Assembly: GCA_945861715.1 (NCBI GenBank)
Contig: CAMAVK010000001.1
Coordinates: forward strand, 186,001 to 250,000
Source of the DNA: Candidatus Woesearchaeota archaeon
GTDB taxonomy: Archaea > Nanobdellota > Nanobdellia > Woesearchaeales > GW2011-AR9
DNA: 64,000 nt
Direction of reading: 5' to 3'
How positions within the stretch are numbered: position 1 is the first letter of the stretch; every line of letters starts with the position of its first letter. Both the position numbers and the translations under genes were made by a program. This document shows, piece by piece, positions 17,744-32,539 of this stretch. A model generated the notes under the pieces. It worked only from the letters and a program-made list of their open reading frames with translations. It had not been told where the DNA came from and did no database searches.

Positions 17744-18955
17744 TTACGCAGCAAATATCTTCACGAGCAATCCCGGAATCTTTGCAATGAGTGGATAAAG
17801 AAGGTTCAAAAGCAACAACAGTAAAAAGAACATTCCAATTTGTCCATATCGTTTATCACCAAGTACTGTTCCTTTCAATTTGCGACAAAACGTCTGTACC
17901 ATCCGTCCACCATCCACAATCGGAAGTGGAAGCAAGTTAAACACTCCAATACCCATACTTAACAGGAACACCCACTTGAAAAATTCTCCCATCTCATGAA
18001 CAACCGCATAGACATACGATAAACCTCCTGCATATTCAGGTTTCACATCAAACGTATCATGAATATTTGTAATCCCTAAAAATGGCTTTGTAGCATCCGA
18101 CGGATTTGCAGCAAGCACAATTGCTTTCTCTACTCCATCTGTTTTGAGAACAATCGTATCTCCTGGTTTTTTTGTATCAAGTGTTTTTTGCAAATCGGCA
18201 AATGTTGTAACAACCGCACCATCAGCTCCCGTGATAACGGAGCCTGGCTCAATTCCTGCTACCGCAATGGGTAAATCTGGTGACACATACGCATCAAAAG
18301 TAAATCCTACTGGTGTTCGCATTGATTGTTCAAGTGGTGATACCGCAAACAACAATCCAAGGGCTATGAGCGATAATAAAATATTTGAAAAAGCACCTGC
18401 GGCAAGAACCGAGTATTGTACTATATCATCTGCTTTACTCATCTTCTTCTCATCTGGTTCAACAAACGCTCCAATAATCGGACCAAAGAGAACAAGACCT
18501 GAACTCTTAACTTCTATTTTGTGAGCACGAGCAACCACTCCATGAGAAAATTCATGCACCACAGCGATTAAAAAGATTGCAAACAACCAATGCCAAAATG
18601 GTAAAATTCCAACACCCGGGACATTTGCTCCCGGAAGAACAAGTGAAACTCCTGATGCAGCATTTTCAACCGTAATCAAGTCATAGAGATTCTTAATTAA
18701 AACTCCTGAAATAAAGACCATACCCACAAACCCAACACCTGCACCAATATAACCAAGCAGAATAACCCATTCTCTGTGTTTTGTTGCAATCCGATCCATC
18801 AGATTCAAACCAATTTTAGTTCGAAGCAAGAAAATAATTTTATTTTGTATATCAAACTTCTTCCTAAAAATAAAAATCAGTGTCGCAACAACAAGATAAA
18901 AAATAATAATCACCTTGTATTTCAAAAAAAAGTCCAATACCACATCTAAAGCCAT
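17744..18955 (-). CDS. Site-2 protease family membrane metalloprotease with PDZ domain
   Basis: The 403-residue protein is an M50 intramembrane zinc protease that cleaves substrates inside the membrane. The HExxH motif is in IAVVHEFSHGVVARAH. The third ligand lies in FNLLPLPIVDGGRM near the C-terminus. A PDZ domain (PIAVAGIEPGSVITGADG, about residues 230-290) sits between them. Several hydrophobic helices flank these motifs. TATATATA at about 18976-18985 lies 25 bases from the ATG, so the start is leaderless. A MITE inserted just upstream of this promoter. Confidence 0.92.
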   Translation of the reverse strand: MALDVVLDFFLKYKVIIIFYLVVATLIFIFRKKFDIQNKIIFLLRTKIGLNLMDRIATKHREWVILLGYIGAGVGFVGMVFISGVLIKNLYDLITVENAASGVSLVLPGANVPGVGILPFWHWLFAIFLIAVVHEFSHGVVARAHKIEVKSSGLVLFGPIIGAFVEPDEKKMSKADDIVQYSVLAAGAFSNILLSLIALGLLFAVSPLEQSMRTPVGFTFDAYVSPDLPIAVAGIEPGSVITGADGAVVTTFADLQKTLDTKKPGDTIVLKTDGVEKAIVLAANPSDATKPFLGITNIHDTFDVKPEYAGGLSYVYAVVHEMGEFFKWVFLLSMGIGVFNLLPLPIVDGGRMVQTFCRKLKGTVLGDKRYGQIGMFFLLLLLLNLLYPLIAKIPGLLVKIFAA

Positions 18956-18999
18956 ATTCCAATGACCATTTTAGTCTATATATATGTTTTGGTGGGGTT

Positions 19000-19159
19000 G
19001 GCTCTGTAGAAAAAATCGCCAGCCTTCCAATCGAACCCATTCAAATACACATAGAGCGCGTCATGAGGTTGCTCCCTACGGGAACATAGTGCTCTCTAAT
19101 AACAAATATTGTGGGTTCGAAGCTGGCAATCGAGCGAACGAGAGATTTTCTACAGAGCC
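19000..19159. mobile_element. 160-bp MITE with terminal inverted repeats and 9-bp target duplication
   Basis: The element is bounded by GGCTCTGTAGAAAA and its reverse complement, and flanked by a perfect 9-bp direct repeat GGTGGGGTT (18991-18999 and 19160-19168). Inside, more paired segments (GCCAGC/GCTGGC, TCGAACCCA/TGGGTTCGA, AGAGC/GCTCT) make nearly the whole element foldable into one long hairpin. No transposase frame is present. The ends resemble IS5/IS903-group termini, which also produce 9-bp duplications, so it is probably a non-autonomous derivative mobilised by such a transposase. Confidence 0.85.
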
Positions 19160-19291
19160 GGTGGGGTTGGATGTTAAATGAAACCGAAAAGTCTGATTTA
19201 AAGTAAGGAAAAGTTTTGAAAGGAATGATAAAGGTAAATGAGCAAGTAGACTTTCGCAACATATAAATACCATTTTTTCCTATATAGATTC

Positions 19292-19675
19292 ATGAAAATC
19301 AACCAAGGCTATGTAGATGGATTTGTAATCCCAGTACCCAAGAATAAATTAGCTGATTACAAGAAAATGGCTGCTGTTGGAGCTAAACTCTGGATGAAGC
19401 ACGGTGCGTTGCAGTATGTTGAATGTGTGGGTGAAGATTTGAAAAGTGCACTCAAATTCAAATGTGTGCCGTTCTATACTCTGGCTAAAGCAAAATCTAA
19501 TGAAGTTGTCGTGTTCTCGTTTATTACCTATAAATCCAAAGCACATCGCAATAGTGTCAATGCTAAAGTCATGAAAGATCCTGCTATGGCCCCCGAAAAA
19601 TGGAAAGACAAGACAATGCCTTTTGATATGAAGCGTATGGCAGTAGGTGGATTTAAAGTTCTTGTTAATGCATAA
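19292..19675 (+). CDS. DUF1428 family protein (YbaA-like)
   Basis: The 127-residue protein matches the DUF1428/YbaA family, which has a dimeric alpha-beta barrel fold of unknown function. Characteristic pieces are YVDGFVIPVPKNKLADYKKMA at the N-terminus, the central VVVFSFITYKSKAHRNSVNAKVM, and the C-terminal MPFDMKRMAVGGFKVLV. The family is mainly bacterial, so transfer is plausible given the MITE next door. ATATAAATA lies about 26 bases upstream, so the gene has an archaeal leaderless promoter. Confidence 0.88.
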   Translation: MKINQGYVDGFVIPVPKNKLADYKKMAAVGAKLWMKHGALQYVECVGEDLKSALKFKCVPFYTLAKAKSNEVVVFSFITYKSKAHRNSVNAKVMKDPAMAPEKWKDKTMPFDMKRMAVGGFKVLVNA

Positions 19676-19742
19676 TCATGAGTAATTTGATTAACAAGAA
19701 AAAAGAGATAGAGTTTATAAAAAAGCAGAAAAACAACAACTT

Positions 19743-20423
19743 ATGAATCCTCTTACCCTTCCTCATCTTCTTCCACAGCTAGAATCAATACTACATGGCT
19801 ATGAATCATATCACCACAAGCAAATTCAGTTTGGAAAACCTTCACCAGTTAGAGCAACTCCTGAGAAACCATACACCGCACGTACAAATGTCCCAATATT
19901 GTATGAGAATCAAAATTGTGGAGATATAGCAGTACTAATCTTTGCACCAGGCGATGGTACCGGAGACACAAGTATGTTCCAAGCGGGTACAATTGAAGTT
20001 CCCCCAAAATATCACCATGACGATAAACCACATAGAGTTTTTCCTCGTGCTAAAGAGAGGGTTATTAGTGAAGGATATCTCCCGCTCTTTGCTATTCGAG
20101 ACGATACATTGACGATTCCTTATGCTGGCTGCCTTGAAGAGCTAACTGTCAGAGATGGAAAAGTAGTAAGGGCTTGGGGCCTGGGTCAGTTCCCTCACGT
20201 ATTCTCGCAAAATGTGGAGAGTGGTCATGGGACAACGCCAAATGTCACATACACTTGTGGTTTAGATGACCGGACTTATTTTGGAGATCCACACGCACTC
20301 TACAATGCCACCAATATTCATCAAGTAGCAGGATTTTTAACTATAACTTGGGGAAATAATCAACTTAACGAACTAAGACAATATTGGAAAATACCTAAGC
20401 TAAATTCTCCCAAAAGTACATAA
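19743..20423 (+). CDS. Unknown soluble protein
   Basis: The 226-residue protein has no recognised family. It has no signal peptide or membrane helix. The middle of the protein (CGDIAVLIFAPGDGTGD, GTIEVPPKYHHDDKPH, HGTTPNVTYTCGLDDRTYFGDP) is rich in His, Asp and Gly and could be a beta-rich metal-binding or cupin-like domain, but this is weak. TTTATAAA lies 26 bases upstream of the ATG. It sits between the DUF1428 and RsuA-like genes on the same strand. Confidence 0.6.
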   Translation: MNPLTLPHLLPQLESILHGYESYHHKQIQFGKPSPVRATPEKPYTARTNVPILYENQNCGDIAVLIFAPGDGTGDTSMFQAGTIEVPPKYHHDDKPHRVFPRAKERVISEGYLPLFAIRDDTLTIPYAGCLEELTVRDGKVVRAWGLGQFPHVFSQNVESGHGTTPNVTYTCGLDDRTYFGDPHALYNATNIHQVAGFLTITWGNNQLNELRQYWKIPKLNSPKST

Positions 20424-20446
20424 AGTAACCCCCATTTTGTACACCC

Positions 20447-21163
20447 ATGGACGAACTCGAACGCGTACAAAAAATCATCGCCAACTCTGGATACTGTGCA
20501 CGCCGTAAAGCTGAAGAGCTCATCGACCAAGGCAGAGTCCAAGTCAATGGTAAAACCGTCAAAATTGGTGACCAAGCGAGCACATCTGACATGATTACTA
20601 TTGATGGAAAACCATTACATTCCGAGAAAAAAGTCTACATCGCACTGAACAAACCCTTTGGCTACGTGACTACCACCGAGGATCCTCACGAGACACGAAT
20701 TATCACTGATTTAATTGATGTCCCCGAGCGTATTTATCCTGTTGGCCGACTAGACAAGTTTACCGGTGGCTTGATCATTCTAACCAATGATGGTGATTTT
20801 GCCAATCGTATCATGCATCCTCGCTATGAAATTGAAAAGACCTACTATGTGAAGACGGATAACCCTATCACCCCTCCTGTTTTGATGAAACTGGCTCGGG
20901 GTATCCTCATTGATGATCGTATGACATCGGATGCGAAAGTCAAACAACTCAGCCAAACAGAAATTGAACTCACCATTCATGAAGGCCGCAACCGAATTGT
21001 CCGTAGAATGATGGAATCATGTGGCTACATGGTCAAAGTATTAATTCGCATTCAAATAGGCAGATTAAAACTGGGAAATCTCAAACCAGGACAGTATTAT
21101 CAAATGACCAATGAAGAAAAAGAATTAATCTTCATGACCAATGCATCACCGACGAGGAAGTGA
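20447..21163 (+). CDS. RsuA/RluB-type pseudouridine synthase
   Basis: This 238-residue enzyme isomerises uridine to pseudouridine in RNA. An N-terminal S4 RNA-binding domain (RVQKIIANSGYCARRKAEELI, about residues 5-60) precedes the catalytic domain with YPVGRLDKFTGGLIILTNDG, the catalytic aspartate being D103. The C-terminal EGRNRIVRRMMESCGY motif is typical. This family modifies rRNA in bacteria and is uncommon in archaea, which suggests acquisition from bacteria; its RNA target here is unknown. Confidence 0.9.
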   Translation: MDELERVQKIIANSGYCARRKAEELIDQGRVQVNGKTVKIGDQASTSDMITIDGKPLHSEKKVYIALNKPFGYVTTTEDPHETRIITDLIDVPERIYPVGRLDKFTGGLIILTNDGDFANRIMHPRYEIEKTYYVKTDNPITPPVLMKLARGILIDDRMTSDAKVKQLSQTEIELTIHEGRNRIVRRMMESCGYMVKVLIRIQIGRLKLGNLKPGQYYQMTNEEKELIFMTNASPTRK

Positions 21164-21408
21164 TTTATTGTTTTATTATTTTATTTAATCCTCTTCCGTT
21201 TCTCTTTCTCTGGCGTCTCTAGATAATTCTCACTCGTTGTAATCGGCCTTCCAAGTTCTTTTTCCGTATCTTTTCGAGCGTTACCTGCAACTCTTCCACC
21301 ACGTTTAGCTGCATCTTCCACTTCAGAATAACCTTTAGCATCTTCTTTTCTTGTGATCTCAGTAGACACCCTTTCCCCTAGCATTGAGAATATTAACTCC
21401 CAATCATT

Positions 21409-21472
21409 CACAAGAAATGAACGTGTTCACATTCATTTCTGTGCAGAAATAGGGTAGGTTCCCTATTTCTTG
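21409..21472. repeat. 64-bp palindromic insertion in the BRO pseudogene
   Basis: The insert begins CAAGAAAT and ends ATTTCTTG, and folds into two side-by-side hairpins: AGAAATGAA with TTCATTTCT, and AGAAATAGGG with CCCTATTTCT. It adds 64 bases and shifts the frame. CA at both junctions may be a short target duplication. Confidence 0.7.
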
Positions 21473-21662
21473 CATATGATCTCGAAGGTTCTCTTTCTTC
21501 AACCCCTTAAGGTCTTTGTATTCATTGGGAGTCATCCCAAACGTTGCCTTTGAAATTTCAGCTGTTAGAACAGCAAACTCTCGATCAGTTTTGACATCCC
21601 TCTTCTTCCACTCATCTGTAAGCTCGTCTCGAATCGCGATACCCCTAACCCGTTTTTCTATC

Positions 21663-21707
21663 GTTTGCGCTTAGCAAACCGCCGAACGAGTGAAAACAGT
21701 GACTGCG
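21663..21707. repeat. 45-bp insertion in the BRO pseudogene
   Basis: Forty-five extra bases interrupt the codons that would encode DDWIEKRV. The insert contains a hairpin, GTTTGC/GCAAAC, and an in-frame stop codon. It does not obviously share sequence with the 64-bp insert. Confidence 0.6.
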
Positions 21708-22281
21708 CAATCATCAGAATAACCCTTAGCTTTGTAGATTTCTCTTGTTCGTTTTTGCGCAAGTTCAGGATTTTCAATCTCTTGCACTCTCTCATAGCCA
21801 ACTTTTGCCAGCCATAATTTGAACGGTTCTGCCTTCTTGGATGGAATCGATTGAATAATACGAAAAATACCTTCGGTATTCGCACAATCTGTTTCATAGG
21901 ATTTTCCATCAGAAGATGGTAATTTCAGTTGTACCCAAATTGGGGACGACTCAAGCTCAGTGAACTCTCTATCTTTCATTTTCCCCCAATATTGCCTTGG
22001 AGTAGGACTGTCCGTTAACGCTTGAACTACATCAACCACCGAAAAAAACCATTCATCATTGTGCCACGTTTTACGGATTTCCTTTCCTTCAAATAGTGCC
22101 AAGTTTGCCATATTACCTTGAAAGGTGAGGCCGTTTAAATACCCTAGCAGGACTTGACCAGTGCGGGAGTGGGTTTGGTTGGATACATTGAACGAGACAA
22201 TGTGATTTTAGCATATCTAGTATAAAACAGTAAGGATACGGCTTTAAAGTTGGTTAAAGGATTATTACTTAAAGACTTAAT

Positions 22282-22803
22282 TTATCCTAAGATTAATTTC
22301 TCCATCTCCATACTAAACTGTTCTGCCCTTTCTAAAGAAGTCTTCGCTTTCGCTCGTTTTATTTCATCAGTTGATTCGTATTGAAAAGCGGAACGCTTTA
22401 CTCTTTCAAGATCATAATTTTGCAGTAGGTTGTCAGATAGTGTTAAAGCTTCGTTGCTGGCTAATTCGTAATCTTCAATGAGATGATCCTTGAGCTTATT
22501 TCGTACTAACACAATTAACGCATCAGAGGTTACTTTATGTGCTACTTTTGGTCCTACCTTGTACCCTAATGTATAAATCATGGCGTTTGATATATAAAAC
22601 ATAGAATAGTAACTTGTTACCACAACCCAAAGTGGAGATATATTATCATTAAAGAGTTTTTTAGCAACAAGTAAAGATTCTGTATGGTTTCTCATGTAGG
22701 TTTGGAAGATAAGCTCATTACGCTTTTCTTTTTTGAGCAAACCATCAGCAAGATACAACTTCACATTACTTTGTGCTTCTTTGATTCGTTCATTGCTTAA
22801 CAT
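22282..22803 (-). CDS. HEPN-domain RNase toxin
   Basis: This 173-residue all-helical protein fits the HEPN family, ribonuclease toxins usually paired with a nucleotidyltransferase antitoxin. The likely catalytic RX5H motif is RNKLKDH at residues 101-107. Helices typical of HEPN (YMRNHTESLLVAKKLF; WVVVTSYYSMFYISNAMIY) precede it. It overlaps the MNT gene upstream by 14 bases, so the two are translated together. The module would act post-translationally, the partner blocking or modifying the RNase. Confidence 0.85.
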   Translation of the reverse strand: MLSNERIKEAQSNVKLYLADGLLKKEKRNELIFQTYMRNHTESLLVAKKLFNDNISPLWVVVTSYYSMFYISNAMIYTLGYKVGPKVAHKVTSDALIVLVRNKLKDHLIEDYELASNEALTLSDNLLQNYDLERVKRSAFQYESTDEIKRAKAKTSLERAEQFSMEMEKLILG

Positions 22804-23386
22804 GATGTATCATCTCATAAAAGCTTTCAATTCCGTACAGGATGATGCTATGTTTCATAATTTCATTTCCAACATTAAATTCTTTACTCGTGAGCATGGC
22901 TAAGAATTGCTCTGAGGTAAATTCCTGTAGATCAATATTGAGGGAAGTTATACTTAGCATTGATTGTACTTGACTCGTTGTTTTTTCATTATCAGTAATA
23001 AGACAGATATCAATATCTGAACCTTTTTTGTTTGTTTTTTTGGCATACGAGCCAAAAAGTATCAGGCAGTAGAAAGGACTTTTAATTGTTTTAATCCGAT
23101 GATAGATCAATTTTATATCTTTATTTTTGAATATTTCTTGCTTACGCATATCTTCAATTTCAACTATCTTACTGTGATATTGATAATTAAACGAACATAC
23201 TTTGGCATTTCCGTGTTTGACGATTTTGAGGAGATGTTCTTGTTCTAATTTTATTATCTCTTGGTAAACTATCTTATAGTTAATGTTGAGTGTTTGAGCA
23301 GCCTTTCGGATTGTAAACGATGTGTCTTTGTTGTCCACGAAGAGTTTGAGAACGGCGAGGTTATTATTACTCATTTGTAATAGCAT
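22790..23386 (-). CDS. Winged-helix plus MNT nucleotidyltransferase antitoxin
   Basis: The 198-residue protein fuses an N-terminal winged helix (about residues 10-65, FTIRKAAQTLNINYKIVYQEI) to a minimal nucleotidyltransferase domain. The nucleotidyltransferase motif GSYAKKTNKKGSDID (112-126) provides the GS and the paired aspartates D124 and D126, with D152 in LNIDLQEF as the likely third. MNT antitoxins neutralise HEPN toxins, in some systems by AMPylating them. The DNA-binding head probably gives autoregulation. A TATA-like element about 27 bases upstream of an internal ATG (23374) leaves the exact start uncertain. Confidence 0.85.
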   Translation of the reverse strand: MLLQMSNNNLAVLKLFVDNKDTSFTIRKAAQTLNINYKIVYQEIIKLEQEHLLKIVKHGNAKVCSFNYQYHSKIVEIEDMRKQEIFKNKDIKLIYHRIKTIKSPFYCLILFGSYAKKTNKKGSDIDICLITDNEKTTSQVQSMLSITSLNIDLQEFTSEQFLAMLTSKEFNVGNEIMKHSIILYGIESFYEMIHHVKQ

Positions 23387-23528
23387 TATTACCTTTTAGT
23401 ATATAAACTTTGTGTGGGTATTTAGAATAAGTGTGAAGAGTGATGGTGGTTGGTGGTGGACTGACTGAGATATCAGTAATGATTATAAAGGACGTTTCAA
23501 AAGAGGTTCGTAAAAGAGATTGATTACA

Positions 23529-23933
23529 ATGGAACGAATTTATGTTGATACTAATATCTACCTCAATCTCTTTCAAGGAGAGAGTGGTCGTTGGCACAAT
23601 TTTGCTGACTTAGCCGCTCATCTTTTCAATAAAGTAAAGAAAGGAGAGTATACCCTCATTATCTCAGATTGGGTGATACAAGAGTTCTCTAAAAAACAAG
23701 ATATGCAAGAAATACAAAAATTGATTGATGACATCCCTCAGAAGCATATAATCCAAGTTAAAACAACATTCCAAGACAAACAGAAAGCACGAGAAATATC
23801 AACGGTTAATTATCCAGACGCCCTCCATGTTGTACTTGCAATGAAAAGTAATGCTATCTACCTTGTAACACGTGATTCTGACTATCAAGAATTTTCTAAT
23901 CTTATTGAAATTCGTTTTCCTGAAGAATTATAG
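23529..23933 (+). CDS. PIN-domain ribonuclease, VapC-like toxin
   Basis: The protein of about 134 residues has a PIN nuclease domain. It starts MERIYVDTNIYLNLF with the first acidic residue in VDTN, then has an acidic DWVIQEFSKK, and ends NYPDALHVVLAMKSNAIYLVTRDSDYQEF with the last metal-binding aspartates. Such proteins cleave tRNA or mRNA. No small VapB-type antitoxin lies upstream. Instead its last 6 bases overlap the end of the convergent winged-helix gene, which may be a functional partner. The ATG at 23529 is chosen over an upstream TTG. Confidence 0.85.
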   Translation: MERIYVDTNIYLNLFQGESGRWHNFADLAAHLFNKVKKGEYTLIISDWVIQEFSKKQDMQEIQKLIDDIPQKHIIQVKTTFQDKQKAREISTVNYPDALHVVLAMKSNAIYLVTRDSDYQEFSNLIEIRFPEEL

Positions 23934-24890
23934 ATCGAGAGGTGGTACGTAATCCTTTAGATGAAAAAGATATTCTGTTGCCACTTGTTTGAGACTTTCC
24001 ATCCTTAGATGATAATATTTCTGAATCTCTGCCTTAGAATAAAAGCCGTTTGATTCGAGAGAAGTATAAAGATTATATGTTGCAATGATTTCCCACACCG
24101 CATTGAATGCTTCAATAATAATTGGACGAATCTCCTCGGCCTGAAGCGGCCCTAATTTGGTTGTTATTCGAAGAGCCATAGAGACAAATCCATCGATATA
24201 TTCTAAAAGTGGTTTGGTTTCTTCATTTACTTTGATACTAAAAAGTAAATTTTTTAATTCACGACGTAAATCATGAATTGAATTCTCCGTAAAGCGATCC
24301 ATAAGAATGTTTGTTATGTTGAGTCGTGCTAAGTACGTTGCGTTCTGTTCATCGCGATACGTTTTTCGCATTAATTCTGCTGTTGTCTGGCAATCCTCAT
24401 AGTACTTAATCGCTGCATCAATTTCCGGATCATATTTAGTAATACTCTTTTCAGTCAATTCTTCATGAAGTACAACACACTCCCCAAATAGATACCAGCC
24501 GTACGGGATGTCTTTGATCTTTGCATCCTTAACTACCTTGACCAGGATTTTGTTCTGGAATGTCTTTAATTGAGCTCGTCGATCTTTCCAACGTTCTTGA
24601 ATCCTTTTTTTAAGTTGGAGAGTGAGTTTGCGCTGTGGTTCGCTAATAGGGATACCAAGCAGAGTATTTTCATTAAGAGAGAGAATGTTTGACTCATTGA
24701 CAAAGTAATAGGTTTTACCATTCTTTTCTTCTAGCGAGATTAGCTTAATTGCGAAAAGTGTTTCAACGGCATTTTTGGCAGTCTCCCAATTGATATTTGT
24801 GTGTTCCGCTATCTGTAAGGTCGTGTGGGAGCCAGTCTTGAGAAACTTGACGACGTCCGTATAGATTTGAGTTCTGGGTCTGTTTGACAT
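23928..24890 (-). CDS. Winged-helix protein with long helical C-terminal domain
   Basis: This 320-residue protein starts with a winged helix-turn-helix (YTDVVKFLKTGSHTTLQIAEHTNINWETAKNAVETLFA, about residues 10-50) plus a wing ending TYYFVNES. A long, mostly helical region of about 240 residues follows, with no family I recognise. Archaeal islands often carry such HTH proteins beside toxins. Here it converges on and overlaps the PIN gene by 6 bases, so it could be the cognate antitoxin or regulator; this is inference. Confidence 0.7.
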   Translation of the reverse strand: MSNRPRTQIYTDVVKFLKTGSHTTLQIAEHTNINWETAKNAVETLFAIKLISLEEKNGKTYYFVNESNILSLNENTLLGIPISEPQRKLTLQLKKRIQERWKDRRAQLKTFQNKILVKVVKDAKIKDIPYGWYLFGECVVLHEELTEKSITKYDPEIDAAIKYYEDCQTTAELMRKTYRDEQNATYLARLNITNILMDRFTENSIHDLRRELKNLLFSIKVNEETKPLLEYIDGFVSMALRITTKLGPLQAEEIRPIIIEAFNAVWEIIATYNLYTSLESNGFYSKAEIQKYYHLRMESLKQVATEYLFHLKDYVPPLDL

Positions 24891-25053
24891 TGTTGGTATT
24901 TATGTATGTATGTACGTATGTATTAACGTTATAACCGTGAGGTTTATATGGATTGCGGTCCGATTTTAGGAAATTAGTAAGGCAATAAACGTAAACTTGA
25001 ATTATAGTTTCTGGTTTAATAAGATTTAAAAAGTGTCAGAATAATTTGAGACT

Positions 25054-25335
25054 ATGGGCATAATTGGGGGTTTTCCAAAATATATCATCGGAGTTTTGCT
25101 AAGTGTTGGATTTGTTAGTATGTATATCTTTGGCGGAACGCTAATTACGTTTTATAATACTGTTAGTCAATTACTTTCTGGAAATTTTATTAACACATTT
25201 TTAGAATACTTCATTTATAGCGCTCTTCCTCCAACTTCGCTAGAACATGTGATTTTGCAAGCTGTGATTGGGGCCGTTGTTGCAGGTGTATTGTGGTTTA
25301 TAGCAATGGCCGCAAGGATAGGGATTAGTTTTTGA
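25054..25335 (+). CDS. Small membrane protein with about three hydrophobic segments
   Basis: The 93-residue protein has hydrophobic segments IIGVLLSVGFVSMYIFGGTLI, FINTFLEYFIYSALP and VILQAVIGAVVAGVLWFIAMA. No family was recognised. TTTAAA lies about 24 bases before the ATG, giving a plausible leaderless promoter. It ends 15 bases from the convergent helicase gene. In defence islands small membrane proteins sometimes act as effectors, but nothing here proves that. Confidence 0.6.
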   Translation: MGIIGGFPKYIIGVLLSVGFVSMYIFGGTLITFYNTVSQLLSGNFINTFLEYFIYSALPPTSLEHVILQAVIGAVVAGVLWFIAMAARIGISF

Positions 25336-25350
25336 AATCATAGAAAATTC

Positions 25351-27240
25351 CTAAATAGGGAGTCTTTTCCTAAAATATTCACTCAACTGCACATCACAGC
25401 AATAAACATAACATCCTTTCAATCCCCTTGTCATCAATGTTCTATAAGTATTTCGAATTATTCGATCAGCTATCTTCTGAGCTTCGGAAGGATTGTTCTT
25501 CGCCAATTGTTTAATACCTTTCAAAGATTGATCGGTGGTAGCTCGCTTTGTGAAATCAGATATAATTTTTCCATTCTCAAATCGTAAGTCTTCTCCAACG
25601 ATGACCCCCACATAGTCAAATTCTAAGCCTTGACAAGTATGGATACATCCTGCCTCCTTTATTGAATCTTTATCAATTGCCCAAGTTTTACTATCACCTA
25701 AATTCCAACTCATCCGAAAACTCTCTCCTATTTGTATGTTAAATAAATATGGATTATTTTTACTGTCCTTTGGCCAATTCCAACAATAACCTGCAACAAT
25801 TCTCGATTTATTATTAATTTTATTTTTTAATTCAATTGCCTGACGCATTTCTGAAGGATCATTAAATATCTTAAACTCATAATCCATAGAAAAACCATCA
25901 TCATTCGCTGTTTCTCGGATACCCAACAGATCATCTAACCATGAAAGATATCCATCCGATCCATTACATCTAAACTGTGACTCTAATTGATAATAAGAAA
26001 TATCGGCCCCCAATTCTTTTGCAAATCGTTCTATTTGCTCTTTACTCCCTATATCAAAGATATCCACTTTTTGATTTTCATCAATGAAGAACATACAACA
26101 TTTAGCAGTATGTATAATTTCTTTGATTTGATTTTCTCCTTTGTTACGATAAAGCCCTGATTTTTCATTTAAACGATGAGCTTCATCTACTATGAGCACA
26201 TTAATTGAACTTTCTTTGCATCCTTCAAATGTACCGGACCCTCGAAACAAATGGTCAATCTCAGGTGCCCGCATAGATCCTTTCAATTTCGCTGCGTAAA
26301 CATAACGAGGAGCTGAATTCTTTGAAATATATTGTGTTACAATCCCCTTTTGGAGAAGTTGGGCTAACAATTGGATAGCTACAACTGTTTTTCCTGTACC
26401 TGGTCCACCCTCAATGATCATAACACTTTTTTTAGGTTGTTGAATAGAATGCAGAGCTAAATTGAGAGCATTCTCAAATACTATTTTTTGACTGTCAATC
26501 ATCACAAATTCAGTGTTTCCCTGCATTAATGTAGAAATGGATTCCTGTAATGACTTTGAAGGACGAATTTTTCCATCACTCAATTCATAGAGATTTTTTT
26601 TCTGATCTCCTTTTATAATATGCTTCTCAATAAATTCGCGTAACTTGTCTGATTCACCTTTGAGAAAAAGAGGTGCTGCATTAACATAATATGCATAGAG
26701 TTTATTATCTATTTCATCTTTATATTTCTGTTCATAATTATGAAGGTAGGCACATGGGTTAACTAATATTTTTTCTTCTTGAATACTCTCATTAAAATTT
26801 TTTAATAATTGGAAATAAGACCATGCTTGATAGGAAGGATGTAAACTCTCGCAAGTTCTTCCAGCAATTCTAGTTAAAACCAACCCATCTTTACCTTCTA
26901 TCTTTGAAGTAGTGTCGCCGGACCATTGTTTTAGCTCAATAACGATCACAACCCCTCGGTTATCTTCACCATATCCTGAAACCACGAAATCAATTCGCTT
27001 CGAAGATAATGGAATCTTAAACTCAATAGCTATTCCTACATCAGAGGGGATCGTATCAGAGAGCAATACTTTGTACATCTGTTGCAATGAATTTTGCCAA
27101 GACCAAAGTTCCCCTTTACTCCCCATGCCCACATTAAGAAATGGTTTGGGAGTGTTGATTTTATCTATAAGAACATCATTTACAAAGTCTTTGAGAAATT
27201 CTTCCTTTGTAGCTTCGTATATTAACATGTTTTCATTCAT
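25351..27240 (-). CDS. DUF2075-type helicase/ATPase fused to a nuclease-like domain
   Basis: The 629-residue protein combines a restriction-like PD-(D/E)XK region at the N-terminus (RIDFVVSGYGE with D84, then VVIVIELKQWS with E102 and K104) and a superfamily 1-like ATPase of the DUF2075 group. Walker A is GGPGTGKT (278-285) and Walker B is IVDEAH (350-355). A late motif, GCIHTCQGLEFDYVGVIVG, matches helicase motif V/VI-type segments. Such proteins are found in defence-rich regions and probably act on foreign nucleic acid. It follows the DUF2779 gene by 77 bases on the same strand. A TATA-like GTATAAAT before it suggests it can also be expressed separately. Confidence 0.85.
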   Translation of the reverse strand: MNENMLIYEATKEEFLKDFVNDVLIDKINTPKPFLNVGMGSKGELWSWQNSLQQMYKVLLSDTIPSDVGIAIEFKIPLSSKRIDFVVSGYGEDNRGVVIVIELKQWSGDTTSKIEGKDGLVLTRIAGRTCESLHPSYQAWSYFQLLKNFNESIQEEKILVNPCAYLHNYEQKYKDEIDNKLYAYYVNAAPLFLKGESDKLREFIEKHIIKGDQKKNLYELSDGKIRPSKSLQESISTLMQGNTEFVMIDSQKIVFENALNLALHSIQQPKKSVMIIEGGPGTGKTVVAIQLLAQLLQKGIVTQYISKNSAPRYVYAAKLKGSMRAPEIDHLFRGSGTFEGCKESSINVLIVDEAHRLNEKSGLYRNKGENQIKEIIHTAKCCMFFIDENQKVDIFDIGSKEQIERFAKELGADISYYQLESQFRCNGSDGYLSWLDDLLGIRETANDDGFSMDYEFKIFNDPSEMRQAIELKNKINNKSRIVAGYCWNWPKDSKNNPYLFNIQIGESFRMSWNLGDSKTWAIDKDSIKEAGCIHTCQGLEFDYVGVIVGEDLRFENGKIISDFTKRATTDQSLKGIKQLAKNNPSEAQKIADRIIRNTYRTLMTRGLKGCYVYCCDVQLSEYFRKRLPI

Positions 27241-27317
27241 TCCTCTTAGTTATTATTTATACTCAATCTCCATCCTTGCTCTGGCGTAATCAATTTCAAC
27301 ACTTCCTATCCTCACTC

Positions 27318-28790
27318 TTAATCTTTTCCCTTTCCAACCAGCTTCTCCAATTCTTTCACAATCCACACCATTCCTTCGGTATCCAATCCGCAATACGCAA
27401 GTAAATCCCGCCGAATCCGAGCCTTCTCATCAAAACCCAAGTTCCCAAAAGCCATCTTGCAATACGAAACCGATGCCAACCCACCATTATTAATATCCAG
27501 ATTCTTGTAACCTTTCCCAGTCAATGCAGGCAACACCGCTTTGATAGAACAACTTCCTCGTTGTGTTGGATTATAATAATCAAAGTTCTTGAATGGCACA
27601 ATCAAATCAACGATACGAACAACAATCTCTTCAACCCACCCAGCATACGCAGGAAATGCAGTAGCCAACTCTCGCAACCGAGCAATCTCAAACGATTGAT
27701 TAAACACAATAATAGTCCCCGTGGGTAAAATAGCATCCTTCAACGCCAGAAGAAATTTCTCTCGTGGATCATCCGCAGAATCATGTAAGAAGTAGGAATG
27801 TTTCAATGTCATCGCATCATCAATATGCACACTGAATTGAAATGGAATTTGCTGATACGGTTTCGTACCGGAGTACATCGGAACCGCAGTTTGAAATGTC
27901 TCAAAGTCAAGATAATGAACAGGATATTTCAACTCACCCAAAAACTTCCCTAACCCAACAGAGTTCACATGCACAGTACCAGACACCGCACATTTCTTCT
28001 GAATGAGTTGTTTGTCAGTTAGCTTAAATGGAGAAGGAATATCTTGAATACGCACAACTTCAGCTTGAAACAACTCAAGAGATTTCTTGCCACCATAATA
28101 CAACTCGAACACATGACTTTCAGGTAAAAAATTCCAGCAGTCTTCAGATTTGCACTCAAGACCATTGTGACAACCATTACCAATATGTACTTGAGGTGGA
28201 GATGACGAATTAACAATCTCCATCATTTCAAAAATCAAGTCAGGCAAACTAGCAACAAGCTCATTAACTTGAGTTGTTACATCTGTCTGCTTCAAGAGCT
28301 GTGAGACATCAAGTTCCCCATTCAAAATATACTCTTTATTAATATGTAAAACAGCACAGTTACGAATCTTTAACCCGAATTGAGTATACACATACTTCTG
28401 AAATGATAGATCGTGTAGATGATCTTCTTTAACTTCTGTTGACCCCTTCACTTCAATAACATCCCATTCATCAACACCAACTGGAACCAATATGTCAGCA
28501 CGTGCAAATAACTCACCAATCATAATCCCTGCTTCAAAAAGAACCTGACGTAATAACAAACACTCTTTGGTCTTCTGCAAATTCAAAGAAAAATCTGTAG
28601 ACTCATCTGGCAAATCAATTCCACCAGGATACAACTTCTTTGCTAATTTACCTATTTCTTTTCCTTGATCAATAATATACTGCGTGGCAGCATCATTTTC
28701 AGGAATTTTATCCAACTCATGAAACATCATCCATAAATAACGCGGACAGGAAAGACCGACAATGTATTTTGACTTTGTGAGTAATGGCAT
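27318..28790 (-). CDS. DUF2779 protein: Cas4-like nuclease fused to DEDD exonuclease domain
   Basis: The 490-residue protein appears to join two nuclease modules. The first half has Cas4/AddB-like features: a cysteine at 15 (GLSCPRYLW), D99, EVK at 113-115, a QxxxY motif (QKYVY, 131-135) and three more cysteines at 207, 213 and 218, which together could hold a 4Fe-4S cluster. The second half has an RNase H-fold exonuclease pattern: LDFETF (D295, E297), VFNQSFE (N364), RIVDL (D395) and CGLDTEGM (D470). CTTTTTAATGG 26 bases upstream gives a leaderless start. The gene precedes the helicase-nuclease gene. Confidence 0.85.
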   Translation of the reverse strand: MPLLTKSKYIVGLSCPRYLWMMFHELDKIPENDAATQYIIDQGKEIGKLAKKLYPGGIDLPDESTDFSLNLQKTKECLLLRQVLFEAGIMIGELFARADILVPVGVDEWDVIEVKGSTEVKEDHLHDLSFQKYVYTQFGLKIRNCAVLHINKEYILNGELDVSQLLKQTDVTTQVNELVASLPDLIFEMMEIVNSSSPPQVHIGNGCHNGLECKSEDCWNFLPESHVFELYYGGKKSLELFQAEVVRIQDIPSPFKLTDKQLIQKKCAVSGTVHVNSVGLGKFLGELKYPVHYLDFETFQTAVPMYSGTKPYQQIPFQFSVHIDDAMTLKHSYFLHDSADDPREKFLLALKDAILPTGTIIVFNQSFEIARLRELATAFPAYAGWVEEIVVRIVDLIVPFKNFDYYNPTQRGSCSIKAVLPALTGKGYKNLDINNGGLASVSYCKMAFGNLGFDEKARIRRDLLAYCGLDTEGMVWIVKELEKLVGKGKD

Positions 28791-29043
28791 TTAATGTAAC
28801 TATTGCCTTCGCCATTAAAAAGTATTTGTTAGAAAAAATCTAAGAGGGAAATCTCGCATTTTTTTCACCCTGCAACTCCATCCCTTCTCTTGAAATTACC
28901 TTATGGTAAATCCTATGCTTTTTTCTTTAACCGAGGCCACATATCTAATAGATTCTCTTTAAAAAATAGATAATTCAACAAGAAAATAATCTTCTAATCA
29001 ACAAATTCAAACTAAAAAAATCAAAAAAGAATTATGACCTAGC

Positions 29044-29205
29044 TTATTTCTTTCTCTTAGGTCTGAGTTTTCTGCCTTTACAACTTCGGCATTTAATCTT
29101 ACCTTGGGATACCTTCAAACTTTGTGCTCGAATTTTTGATTTACATCCTCGACAAACGAAAACGCCTTTCAAAATTCGTGCGGTTGCTTCTTCAAATTTT
29201 ACCAT
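29044..29205 (-). CDS. rpl40e: Ribosomal protein eL40
   Basis: This 53-residue protein is the archaeal large-subunit protein eL40. It has a zinc ribbon with CRGC (residues 18-21) and CRSC (39-42), followed by the basic tail KGRKLRPKRKK. The length and pattern match the archaeal family closely. An AGGTG site precedes the ATG. It is the last gene of a three-gene operon after the histone and aIF5A, with 30 bases between it and aIF5A. Confidence 0.95.
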   Translation of the reverse strand: MVKFEEATARILKGVFVCRGCKSKIRAQSLKVSQGKIKCRSCKGRKLRPKRKK

Positions 29206-29235
29206 AGTGAGCACCTATAATTATATTTTTAATAT

Positions 29236-29631
29236 TTATGCCTTAATCTGCTTCATGATCATCATACCAACCATAGTCCAGTACAAAATCTCAACACCTT
29301 CATGAACATCAGCTTGAAGTTCTTCAGGAATATCCATCTCAAAGGTTTCAAAAGACTCTGAATCCATAACACTAGCCTTAGTGCCTGAAACAGACAACAC
29401 TTGAGCGGACTTCTTCTCAATAATAGGAACTTCAACTCTATCGTGACCAGGCATAACCACGTTTCGTTTCTTCCCATCAATAAGACCAACCGCCATCAAA
29501 TTAACCTTAGCGTGACCATGTTTACCAGGTCGTGATGTAGCCGTATCCGTAATCTTACACGGCGCATTATCAATAATAATAGTATCTCCCTTGTGGAGTG
29601 TACCGACACTTACGAGCTTTCTCTCATCCAT
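29236..29631 (-). CDS. eif5A: Translation initiation factor aIF5A
   Basis: The 131-residue protein is the archaeal IF5A, which helps ribosomes through difficult peptide bonds such as polyproline. The N-terminal SH3-like domain carries the hypusine loop SRPGKHGHAK, where the modified lysine is K38, and the C-terminal OB fold ends VGMMIMKQIKA. An AGGTG site lies about 8 bases upstream, located just after the histone stop codon, so the gene is co-transcribed with the histone. Confidence 0.95.
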   Translation of the reverse strand: MDERKLVSVGTLHKGDTIIIDNAPCKITDTATSRPGKHGHAKVNLMAVGLIDGKKRNVVMPGHDRVEVPIIEKKSAQVLSVSGTKASVMDSESFETFEMDIPEELQADVHEGVEILYWTMVGMMIMKQIKA

Positions 29632-29641
29632 ATGATTACAC

Positions 29642-29854
29642 CTACTTACTTGTTGCTAAAGCAATATCCTTCTCAGTCACCGTCTTGCGACCTGCGTGTT
29701 CTGCGAACTTCTTTGCTTCCATTGCAATCTCGATACCTTTCTGCTCAAGCACAGCAGCCAGTGCTTCCTTTGCGTCATCAGAAACACGAACCACACCTAC
29801 CTGTCGCATAATCTTATCCATTGCATTATAGGACAAGAACGATTTGCTAGCCAT
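29642..29854 (-). CDS. Archaeal histone
   Basis: The protein has 70 residues and one histone fold: helix 1 (NAMDKIMRQV), helix 2 (VSDDAKEALAAVLEQKGIEIAMEAKKFAEHAG) and the closing helix after the RKTVTEKDIALA motif, which is diagnostic of archaeal histones. It would wrap DNA as dimers or longer hypernucleosomes. I use the ATG at 29854 because CCTTTAAA lies 27 bases upstream, suggesting a leaderless message. It heads the operon with aIF5A and eL40. Confidence 0.93.
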   Translation of the reverse strand: MASKSFLSYNAMDKIMRQVGVVRVSDDAKEALAAVLEQKGIEIAMEAKKFAEHAGRKTVTEKDIALATSK

Positions 29855-29893
29855 ACAACCCAAAAATGAGCTTTCTTTTTTAAAGGTATCGAA

Positions 29894-30115
29894 ATATTAG
29901 TTGATTGTCCAGTGTGTTATATCTATTCTATCAACTAATATTAGAAAGAGACATCTTCCACCTCTCTTTCTTTATATTAGTTGATTTTATAGTGGGTTAT
30001 ATCTATTTCATCAACTAATATTAGAAAGAGACATCCTCCACCTCTCTTTCTTTATATTAGTTTATTTTATAGTGTGTTATATCTATTCTCTCAACTAAAT
30101 TTGAAAGACAAGCCT
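29894..30115. repeat. Three tandem 80-bp repeats with internal dyads
   Basis: Units begin at 29894, 29974 and 30054, an exact 80-base period; the third is degenerate at its end. Each unit holds a dyad, ATATTAGTTGAT with ATCAACTAATAT, around a conserved GTTATATCTATT core. Units 1 and 2 also hold AGAAAGAG/CTCTTTCT flanking a C-rich loop. The array fills the 331-base gap between the leftward histone operon and the rightward gene at 30195. No gene is present. Roles as a protein-binding array, origin or partition-type site, or regulatory element are possible. Confidence 0.85.
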
Positions 30116-30194
30116 CCCGTCTCAAATAAACGGCAGCATAAAACCTCCTCTCAACCACCATAATACTTTTAACCAGATTTCTCCTATTTCCATC

Positions 30195-30623
30195 ATGGCA
30201 GACCTATATGAAATACTAAGCAGGAATGAGACAACAAAATCGAGAGCGCAACCATCAATTATACCACTTCGAGATGTAAGTCTTCTCAACGATTTTTACG
30301 CACAATTAAACATCTATAACGATAGTGAAGTGATGTTTCCTCGTGAAAAGCGAGTTATCGGAATCATCGGAGTCAATCGGGCCCAATCGGGCATATACGA
30401 ATTAGAAATAACGAATGCTCACGTAAGGGGTAAAACCCTTGCGCTTACACTCATTGATCAAATTCCTGAAGGATTCAAAGGTGGAAGTATGCTCTCAGTT
30501 GCTGGAAGCCCCGTACTTGTAGCAAGCATCCCATACAACATCCTAAGAATACATGCCACATATACTCCCACCAGTGGTCGCGGCCAAGAATTCCAAGAAA
30601 TGAAGCTCAATACAACATTTTAA
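30195..30623 (+). CDS. Unknown protein
   Basis: The 142-residue protein has no recognised family. It appears soluble and beta-rich in its second half (IGIIGVNRAQSGIYELEITNAHVRGKTLALTLIDQI). A TATA-like CTTTTAAC lies about 25 bases upstream of the ATG, so the start looks leaderless. It is the first rightward gene after the 80-bp repeat array. Confidence 0.65.
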   Translation: MADLYEILSRNETTKSRAQPSIIPLRDVSLLNDFYAQLNIYNDSEVMFPREKRVIGIIGVNRAQSGIYELEITNAHVRGKTLALTLIDQIPEGFKGGSMLSVAGSPVLVASIPYNILRIHATYTPTSGRGQEFQEMKLNTTF

Positions 30624-30724
30624 TTTTTTTATTTTTATTTAAGTTCTCTTTAGTTTTCAACGTGTTTATCTCAGAAAAACAACGAAGTGTTCTCAGAATA
30701 CCAACAACCACCACAAAAATACAT

Positions 30725-31555
30725 TCAAAAAAATTTCCACCAACTTCCCTTCTTCTTCCCATTTTTAACCGTTCGAACATACCTCTCAATCTCCTTCTCA
30801 AGCATTTCAAAACGAGGAAACTTTCGCTCATCAGCACGAAATGCTGCACTATGACTCACATCCCGCACTCCCCGGACATGAAATTTATGCACGATATGTA
30901 ACATCTCATGGTACATAATAAAATCAAGCATCTCAGCCGGTGCCGAGCAAAACGCCGTTGACATCACAATTGTATGACTCTGAAAATTATAGTGCGCCAA
31001 TCGTCGAGTCGACTCCTGCCCCCACTTCAAATTCGGGCACTCCAACCCACCTTCAAAAAACAAAATATTATTGCGATCAAACGATGCCTTCAACACCACA
31101 TCCTGTTCCTCAACCACTGCAAACGACGAAATTGTCTTCACAAAATTCTTGTATAACAAAACAGAAGGAGTCATCTCAACTCTGCGATACACTTTGCGAA
31201 GCAAATGCTCAATAAGTCCTAGTTTAATCGAGTCATCAATATCTCTCCATTCCTCATGCATCCCAATTTCAATCCCGCGACCACCCACTCTGATATTCGC
31301 ATTGAATCGTGTAAACCGTCGATTATACACAAGAGATGTCAAAGGAATATCCTTGCGAGGAAAAATAGCACGAAACGCAACCGCAATGAGATCATGAGTA
31401 GATTCAGCCTTTTCACCAATATCTTTCTCAACAGAATTAATTTCTTTATCTTGCAAAATCTCAGCATCCACTTCCTCAACAAATTCAAAATCTAACAGCG
31501 ATGTCGCAACTTCTCCACGTCCATTTCGTAACATTGAATTATTGGCATGTACCAC
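30725..31555 (-). CDS. SprT-like zinc metalloprotease
   Basis: The protein of up to 276 residues has an HExxH zinc site in IMYHEMLHIVHKFH, followed by SHSAAFRADERKFPRFEMLEKEIERYV, the pattern of SprT/YgjP-type metalloproteases. The N-terminal part is a strand-rich region (YNRRFTRFNANIRVGGRGIEIGMHEEW). Relatives such as Spartan degrade DNA-protein crosslinks, but the role of the archaeal forms is unclear. The first codon in the long reading is a GTG that fits the TATA spacing; an ATG at 31534 is an alternative. It diverges from the patatin gene. Confidence 0.8.
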   Translation of the reverse strand: MVHANNSMLRNGRGEVATSLLDFEFVEEVDAEILQDKEINSVEKDIGEKAESTHDLIAVAFRAIFPRKDIPLTSLVYNRRFTRFNANIRVGGRGIEIGMHEEWRDIDDSIKLGLIEHLLRKVYRRVEMTPSVLLYKNFVKTISSFAVVEEQDVVLKASFDRNNILFFEGGLECPNLKWGQESTRRLAHYNFQSHTIVMSTAFCSAPAEMLDFIMYHEMLHIVHKFHVRGVRDVSHSAAFRADERKFPRFEMLEKEIERYVRTVKNGKKKGSWWKFF

Positions 31556-31681
31556 ATTTACTCAAACTCACACCAAGTTATAAACGCTGCTCATGATTTT
31601 ATCACAAAAATACACAGTAAAAGAATCAACTACATATATCTATACTCTAAAACTATATCTTTGAGAATTCTCCTTCCTCCT

Positions 31682-32539
31682 ATGGAGCTCACACATCCAA
31701 ATCTTGGAATCGTAGCCCCTGGTGGTGGCCTTCGCGGCGCGTTTGTCTGCGGCGCACTTGAAGCATTAATTGACCAATACAACCTCACCGCCCCCAAAGC
31801 CGTTCTTGGTTGTTCAGGCTCTGCTGCTCCGTTTGCCTATTATGCAGCAAACCAAAGCGAAGTCGGATACGAGGCATACAAGTATCTCTGTCTTAATAAA
31901 CTAATTGACCTAAAGCGCATCTTCACAAATAATAAAATTAAATTCTCAAATCTATTCAATTTCACCCTTCTAAGACAAACATTTGCGCAAGAATACCCAA
32001 TAAACATCCAAAACATCATTCAAAATCCAACCACACTTCACATCGCATTAACTGAGTACGAAACTGGAAAACCAATCTACCTCTCAAATTGGACTAACGC
32101 TCCGCTTGTAGACGCCCTGCTCGCTTCCAAATCAATCCCGGTTGTAAACGACGGAAAAATAAAAGTCAACGATACATACTTTACTGATGGCGAACTTGCC
32201 TGTCCACTTGACAAAAACATCGCATACCTCAAATCTCTTGGTATCCAAAAAATCCTCGTTCTCGATTGCGGCTCAAAATTAACCTTTGCACGACGACTCC
32301 TCCTCAAAGTCCATTCACATAGAGATAGAATCCCCCGGTTACTCGGAAACACCATCAGAGAATATTGTGACTCAACCCTCCAATTCTACGATGAGCCAGA
32401 CGTCTTCTACATCAACCCAATGAAGCCACTCCCTGCAGGAACATTTTCAACATCATGGGACAAAGTAAGATCCACAATGGACATCGGCTCAGATTCAATC
32501 ATCTGCAATCCATATCTCAAAGAATTCTTAAACAAATAA
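31682..32539 (+). CDS. Patatin-like phospholipase family protein
   Basis: The 285-residue protein has the patatin hydrolase signature. The oxyanion segment is APGGGLRGAFVCGALEAL, the nucleophile elbow GCSGSAAPFA carries the catalytic serine, and the dyad aspartate is in YFTDGELACPL. These enzymes hydrolyse acyl esters, which is notable because archaeal membranes are ether-linked; the substrate could be host-derived or dietary lipid (inference). I start at 31682 because CTATATC lies about 27 bases upstream and family similarity begins there; a longer reading lacks support. Confidence 0.88.
   Translation: MELTHPNLGIVAPGGGLRGAFVCGALEALIDQYNLTAPKAVLGCSGSAAPFAYYAANQSEVGYEAYKYLCLNKLIDLKRIFTNNKIKFSNLFNFTLLRQTFAQEYPINIQNIIQNPTTLHIALTEYETGKPIYLSNWTNAPLVDALLASKSIPVVNDGKIKVNDTYFTDGELACPLDKNIAYLKSLGIQKILVLDCGSKLTFARRLLLKVHSHRDRIPRLLGNTIREYCDSTLQFYDEPDVFYINPMKPLPAGTFSTSWDKVRSTMDIGSDSIICNPYLKEFLNK

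Follow-up and report, generated by a model that had tools for sequence, protein, structure and literature searches.

DUF2779 nuclease and Schlafen-type helicase genes as probably separate modules of an archaeal accessory island

Two genes for large nucleic-acid enzymes, a DUF2779 nuclease and a PF09848 nuclease-helicase, lie in tandem in the genome of a Candidatus Woesearchaeota archaeon. Do they form a dedicated nuclease-helicase pair, or are they independent residents of one defence island? Our analysis covered a window of 64,000 nucleotides (assembly GCA_945861715.1, contig CAMAVK010000001.1, forward-strand positions 186,001 to 250,000), to which all unprefixed coordinates refer, in a host genome of 1.3 Mb that is 98% complete. 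A first-pass annotation, made from the sequence alone, had read the two genes as one defence or DNA-processing system. Our analysis supports the defence-type context of this reading but not a dedicated pair, which the two genes probably are not. With a probability of about two in three (0.68), we regard them as two intact modules, independent of each other, in an archaeal defence island that was acquired horizontally. Related genomes and loci are given G and L numbers. Both open reading frames (ORFs) are intact, and their parts lie as follows (aa, amino acids).

27318-28790, minus strand: gene of the DUF2779 protein, 490 aa, a Cas4-like iron-sulphur (Fe-S) PD-(D/E)XK nuclease with a DEDD-type exonuclease domain (profiles, alignments, structure model).
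28101-28790, minus strand: Cas4-like N-terminal domain, about aa 1-230 (PADLOC Cas4 at aa 13-208, conserved residues, Foldseek Cas4 matches).
27336-27935, minus strand: DEDD-type exonuclease domain, about aa 286-485 (PF11074 at aa 292-415, invariant residues, DnaQ/3'hExo Foldseek matches).
27241-27317, minus strand: gap of 77 bp between the helicase and DUF2779 genes, where a MazG-like gene sits in most relatives.
25351-27240, minus strand: gene of the PF09848 (SLFN-g3, formerly DUF2075) nuclease-helicase, 629 aa (profiles, alignments, structure model).
26611-27063, minus strand: PD-(D/E)XK/NERD-like N-terminal region, about aa 60-210 (weak NERD match, invariant E73, D84, E102 and K104).
25393-26430, minus strand: superfamily 1 (SF1) helicase domain, aa 271-616 (PF09848, invariant motifs).

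The DUF2779 protein matched PF11074 over profile positions 1-126 of 126 at 136.6 bits (cut-off 23.3). Its N-terminal part matched Cas4 of PADLOC at 8e-6 and Cas_Cas4 of Pfam at 17.9 bits, the latter under the cut-off. A sequence search against solved structures gave no match for this protein and only the RecA P-loop for the helicase, so the folds were predicted and compared instead. The AlphaFold2 model of the DUF2779 protein has a mean predicted local distance difference test score (pLDDT) of 94; its top Foldseek matches were Cas4 crystal structures (4r5q, 8d3l), with DnaQ/3'hExo-type exonucleases lower down. Across one alignment of 24 proteins and another of 30, three sets of residues were either invariant or largely conserved: the cysteines of the Fe-S site (C15/C207/C213/C218), the residues of the nuclease site (D99/E113/K115/Q131) and the DEDD set (D295/E297/E368/D470). 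As judged from sequence, the protein has the four Fe-S cysteines and the D/ExK/Q set of Cas4, and metal binding is predicted. The Cas4-like/DEDD fusion noticed earlier is borne out by these matches. A Cas4-like domain (DUF83) joined to an RNase H-like 3'-5' exonuclease fold has been in print for DUF2779 since 2014 (PMC3985635), so that this fusion is not new, and DUF2075 is the present 'Schlafen group 3 helicase' (PF09848) of Pfam. Among named genomes, a Woesearchaeota archaeon has a close match, 65% identical to the window protein. We also noticed a distant DUF2779-like subfamily of about 450-475 aa and 24-33 bits (L147, with weak matches in G123, G150, G198, G134, G164 and G247), which may be a separate family.

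The helicase protein matched PF09848 at 342 bits, over aa 271-616 and profile positions 1-354 of 354. Its NERD match (aa 82-155) reached 16.7 bits, which is under the cut-off. Invariant in the alignments were E73, D84, E102-x-K104, the Walker A core, the DExH and QFR motifs and the later motifs, in agreement with the first reading of an ATPase that is joined to a PD-(D/E)XK-like region. The structure model is moderate (pLDDT 73.5), and its top Foldseek matches include RecD2, SLFN11, Dna2 and SLFN14. Thus a loss of active-site residues, named at the outset as a point that would speak against the proposal, was seen for neither protein. This nuclease-helicase was found in 19 of the 279 genomes of the phylum, and a literature search on a defence role of DUF2075 or COG3410 returned no relevant paper. 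At the 3' end of the helicase gene, six loci contain a convergent and conserved small ORF of 52-72 aa (FEGYTVDxRLRQFR...), which overlaps the helicase gene by a few bases in five of them (L073:3076-3267, L072:8029-8217, L076:6364-6552, L074:4884-5102, L080:6862-7047, L071:7939-8097). The one tested had no Pfam match, and this ORF is absent from the window.

Both genes lie in an accessory island, as had been proposed, whose limits and flanks are these.

18956-29043, no strand: accessory island of 10.1 kb, inserted between an M50 site-2-type protease gene and rpl40e.
17744-18955, minus strand: M50 site-2-type protease gene, one flank of the island.
29044-29214, minus strand: rpl40e, the other flank.

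Four relatives (G084, G300, G043 and G288) lack the island at this site. Their gene order is continuous (SprT, in some a histone, aIF5A, L40e, M50 protease), and only 26-90 bp separate L40e from the protease. Four empty sites against a separation of 10.1 kb in the window are direct evidence for the insertion of an accessory island at this locus.

The usual partner of the helicase in the phylum is a MazG-like pyrophosphohydrolase, not DUF2779. Besides the window, 17 loci of the phylum have a readable PF09848 nuclease-helicase, and in 16 of them (L068-L078, L080-L084) a MazG-like gene (PF12643) lies directly upstream on the same strand. The gap between the two genes is −7 to +2 bp in 13 of these 16, meaning that they overlap or touch. 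The sole locus without MazG, L079, has a very divergent helicase. MazG and the helicase form, therefore, a conserved two-gene module in the phylum. Outside it, the pair was found in Halalkalicoccus, Marivirga, Priestia and a Microcystis phage, and helicases without MazG in examples from Methanosphaera, Hymenobacter, Halomonas and Streptomyces. The window locus falls outside the module, with MazG absent upstream. A MazG profile run against the six frames of positions 20001-32000 gave nothing above chance, and no MazG gene was found elsewhere in the genome. The first-pass annotation could not see this partner because it is missing in the window. Two MazG-like proteins of the module were tested against PADLOC and had no match. 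In the papers searched we did not come across the pairing; one of them lists MazG among predicted, unvalidated defence domains (PMC13092281).

Co-occurrence of the DUF2779 and helicase genes in other genomes, the check proposed at the outset, was confirmed. With linkage defined as both genes within 8 kb, they are linked in five of the seven phylum genomes that have both (the window's own, G149, G165, G167 and G042), and also in an Elusimicrobia bacterium (L212). The same threshold, applied to other defence genes as a control, gave DUF2779 linkage to GmrSD in 4/7 and to HsdS in 6/17 genomes, where for HsdS the linkage count alone was used and the genome list was restricted to genomes of interest. 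Combined, the controls give 10/24, and linkage to the helicase is not detectably higher (Fisher p = 0.22). The tree of DUF2779 proteins requires six changes to account for its six linked members, the same as with shuffled labels, and the tree of the helicases requires four. The two genes thus seem to have come to reside together in defence islands repeatedly, more than to have been inherited as a fixed pair. Neither linkage above that of other defence genes nor a shared history was thus found in this small sample, and after the linkage control and the two trees we rejected a dedicated two-gene system as the preferred interpretation. In G167, a gene for an SRA-HNH nuclease, likely modified-DNA-dependent, lies between DUF2779 and the MazG-helicase pair (L083:10232-11125).

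DUF2779 is a mobile defence-island gene that often accompanies type I restriction-modification (RM) systems, Dcm-type methyltransferases, GmrSD or WYL regulators. It was found with a strong score in 60 of the 279 phylum genomes, and further in many bacterial phyla, on plasmids and on two IMG/VR contigs, while the annotated phage collection contained none. Recurrent neighbours are WYL regulators, Dcm-type methyltransferases, type I RM subunits, GmrSD, nucleotidyltransferase (NTase)/HEPN pairs and Bro-N proteins. The two proteins most similar to that of the window (87% and 73% identity) are both encoded in G062, each by a gene that adjoins a type I RM operon and has no linked helicase. In a comparison of 20 loci with control stretches from the same contigs (E < 1e-10), 137 DUF2779-neighbour proteins matched 419 PADLOC models and 140 matched control proteins 51, a count that is inflated by redundant models although its direction is clear. 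Type I/II methyltransferase and specificity models top the neighbour list, not the control list.

Some further observations concern these neighbourhoods. The two G062 loci are L124 (G062:C2:577000-592000) and L119 (G062:C2:1289000-1304000), where DUF2779 stands directly beside the RM operons; one of the two copies is about 8 kb from a pseudouridine-synthase block that is also present inside the window's island. Homologues of WYL-type regulators lie within 4 kb of DUF2779, and in several cases adjacent to it, mostly in bacteria (L062, L064, L179, L182, L184, L204, L214, L215, L219, L223, L225, L230); they may serve specifically to regulate DUF2779 as a one-gene defence. In L062, an IMG/VR contig, DUF2779 and a divergent WYL-type gene were accompanied by proteins that looked terminase-like and ParB-like by eye, and this DUF2779 copy may be carried by a provirus.

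Several points weigh against our interpretation. With just seven genomes holding both genes, the linkage control is low-powered, and a moderate preference for the helicase is possible. All six linked loci share one order on the same strand, with DUF2779 upstream, then MazG where present, then the helicase. Chance co-residence would not favour such constancy, and it is the sole feature that still favours cooperation, tempered in that three of the six helicases are close kin. Helicases of the family without MazG exist elsewhere (L149, L151, L155), so that the absence of MazG need not imply decay. The inflation of the PADLOC count by redundant models belongs here too, and no published phage challenge or biochemistry was found for the DUF2779 or PF09848 families.

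The constant order is what could argue for a dedicated defence system of DUF2779, MazG and the Schlafen helicase, in which the helicase would unwind foreign DNA, DUF2779 would digest the two strands, starting at their ends, and nucleotides would be depleted by MazG, the window being a variant without MazG. It is shared by the window, G149, G165, G167, G042 and L212 across two domains of life, and the gaps between DUF2779 and MazG are only 24-49 bp in G149 and G165, in addition to the linkage of 5/7. Against this, linked DUF2779 loci are few (2/80 in the genome contig collection, one being G149 again, and 5/65 in the phylum), 14 of the 19 helicase genomes in the phylum have no linked DUF2779, linkage does not stand out from that to unrelated defence genes, and linked and unlinked DUF2779 proteins are intermingled on the tree. 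The two genes are 5.5 kb apart in G042, and the SRA-HNH gene intervenes in G167. We therefore consider such a system doubtful, at perhaps one chance in five; equally doubtful is the form in which archaea and bacteria put together the DUF2779/MazG-like/NERD-Schlafen helicase set on several independent occasions, with one gene order, owing to cooperation of the enzymes, with the window variant working without nucleotide depletion. The structural matches would also suit DNA repair or recombination enzymes (RecB/Dna2/AddAB-like) without a defence role. Cas4-like and SF1 enzymes act in repair elsewhere, and the match lists of the two proteins include Dna2, RecD2 and enzymes of AdnAB and Exo5 type. 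This is unlikely in view of the patchy presence of both genes, carriage on plasmids and a phage, the insertion of the island and the restriction, toxin and WYL neighbours. Least probable, and by a wide distance, is that DUF2779 processes prespacers as in CRISPR adaptation, with the Cas4 and DEDD domains both trimming. Cas4 and DnaQ-domain structures are indeed among its structural matches, but Cas1 was not found in its own nearly complete genome and no cas cluster was evident among its recurrent neighbours. Its identity as a CRISPR Cas4 was rejected, the gene not being located with cas1/cas2.

If the two genes are separate modules, as we prefer, one would most likely be a stand-alone, promiscuous DUF2779 nuclease that degrades or trims foreign DNA ends, its Cas4-like Fe-S and DEDD 3'-5' exonuclease domains acting on ends left by restriction systems or by the helicase-nuclease. 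A role of this kind was suggested for UvrD-Cas4 proteins, which PMC5704561 describes as ancillary nucleases that accompany type III RM, Dcm and WYL genes. The other module, the SLFN-g3 SF1 helicase with its PD-(D/E)XK-like region, would most likely engage single-stranded or forked DNA in phage replication. Nhi is a nuclease-SF1 helicase enzyme. As proposed for Nhi-type nuclease-helicases, the protein may translocate along exposed invader DNA and cut it; Nhi is reported to be activated by a phage single-strand-binding protein (PMC10732053). In relatives, the MazG-like (d)NTP pyrophosphohydrolase would drain nucleotides, while the window helicase, lacking MazG, would work alone or be functionally decaying. 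The domains, the intact active sites, the inserted island, the pairing with MazG elsewhere, the defence-rich surroundings and the non-exclusive linkage are observed; an antiviral role, these substrates, this direction of action and the lack of direct cooperation between the two proteins are what we infer.

The other genes of the island are consistent with a defence-type context. Its cargo comprises DUF2779, the helicase, a winged-helix protein, the pseudouridine-synthase block and the following genes.

22282-23386, minus strand: NTase/HEPN pair of MntA/HepT type (NTase 22790-23386, HEPN 22282-22803; profile matches).
23520-23933, plus strand: PIN-domain protein (PF01850, 37 bits).
21671-22111, minus strand: truncated Bro-N/RhuM-type gene, PDC-S13-like (PF02498 and PDC-S13 matches).

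The two toxin-type modules reported earlier correspond to the NTase-HEPN pair and the PIN protein; homologous NTase/HEPN pairs lie near DUF2779 in L074, L109 and L128. What had been called a mobile-element pseudogene is indeed a truncated gene (146 aa versus 282-297 aa in homologues), with the identity of a Bro-N/RhuM fragment. A miniature inverted-repeat transposable element (MITE), also reported, was not confirmed, and no convincing terminal or flanking repeats were found at the island ends. The small membrane protein gene placed at the downstream edge exists (25054-25335), on the strand opposite to the nuclease and helicase genes and with no homologue in the loci examined. Outside the island, about three imperfect tandem copies of about 80 bp each were spotted by eye at 29880-30110, upstream of the histone and aIF5A genes.

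These results suggest that DUF2779, a widespread but almost unstudied family, behaves as a mobile gene that accompanies loci for restriction and other kinds of defence. In most of the phylum cases examined, the prokaryotic relative of the human Schlafen helicases is encoded with a MazG-like nucleotide hydrolase. First in line for testing should be this module of MazG and the Schlafen-type nuclease-helicase, which makes a better target than the DUF2779-helicase pair.

Compared with known systems, the window protein is a full-domain match to the DUF2779 family (PF11074; RNHL clade F.17) with the same architecture, and differs solely in the adjoining Schlafen-type helicase. UvrD-Cas4 fusions (PMC5704561) likewise combine a Cas4-like nuclease with an SF1 helicase in RM, Dcm and WYL neighbourhoods with changing partners. 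There, however, nuclease and UvrD helicase are one polypeptide, whereas in the window the fusion partner of the nuclease is a DEDD domain, and a separate gene encodes the helicase, which is of another family. ACE1, an Argonaute-associated Cas4 family protein, is also a Cas4-fold nuclease outside CRISPR (Foldseek 9iab/9iac); the match is weak, and ACE1 lacks the DEDD fusion. No Argonaute was seen with the window protein, though no search was aimed at one. The window helicase has the SF1 helicase core in common with three PADLOC models, Nhi (47 bits, only positions 193-332 of 470), AbiO (51 bits, positions 120-342 of 468) and PDC-S41 (55.5 bits in three short stretches; 83.6 bits for the G149 homologue). 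These scores are low, partial and mostly from the core; the helicase is not a full-length member of Nhi or AbiO, and the MazG partner of its wider family has no PADLOC match. With Schlafen group 3 (SLFN11, SLFN14) it shares the C-terminal helicase family (PF09848) and Foldseek matches, but it is prokaryotic, and its N-terminus, from its sequence motifs, appears to be PD-(D/E)XK/NERD-like rather than an SLFN core.

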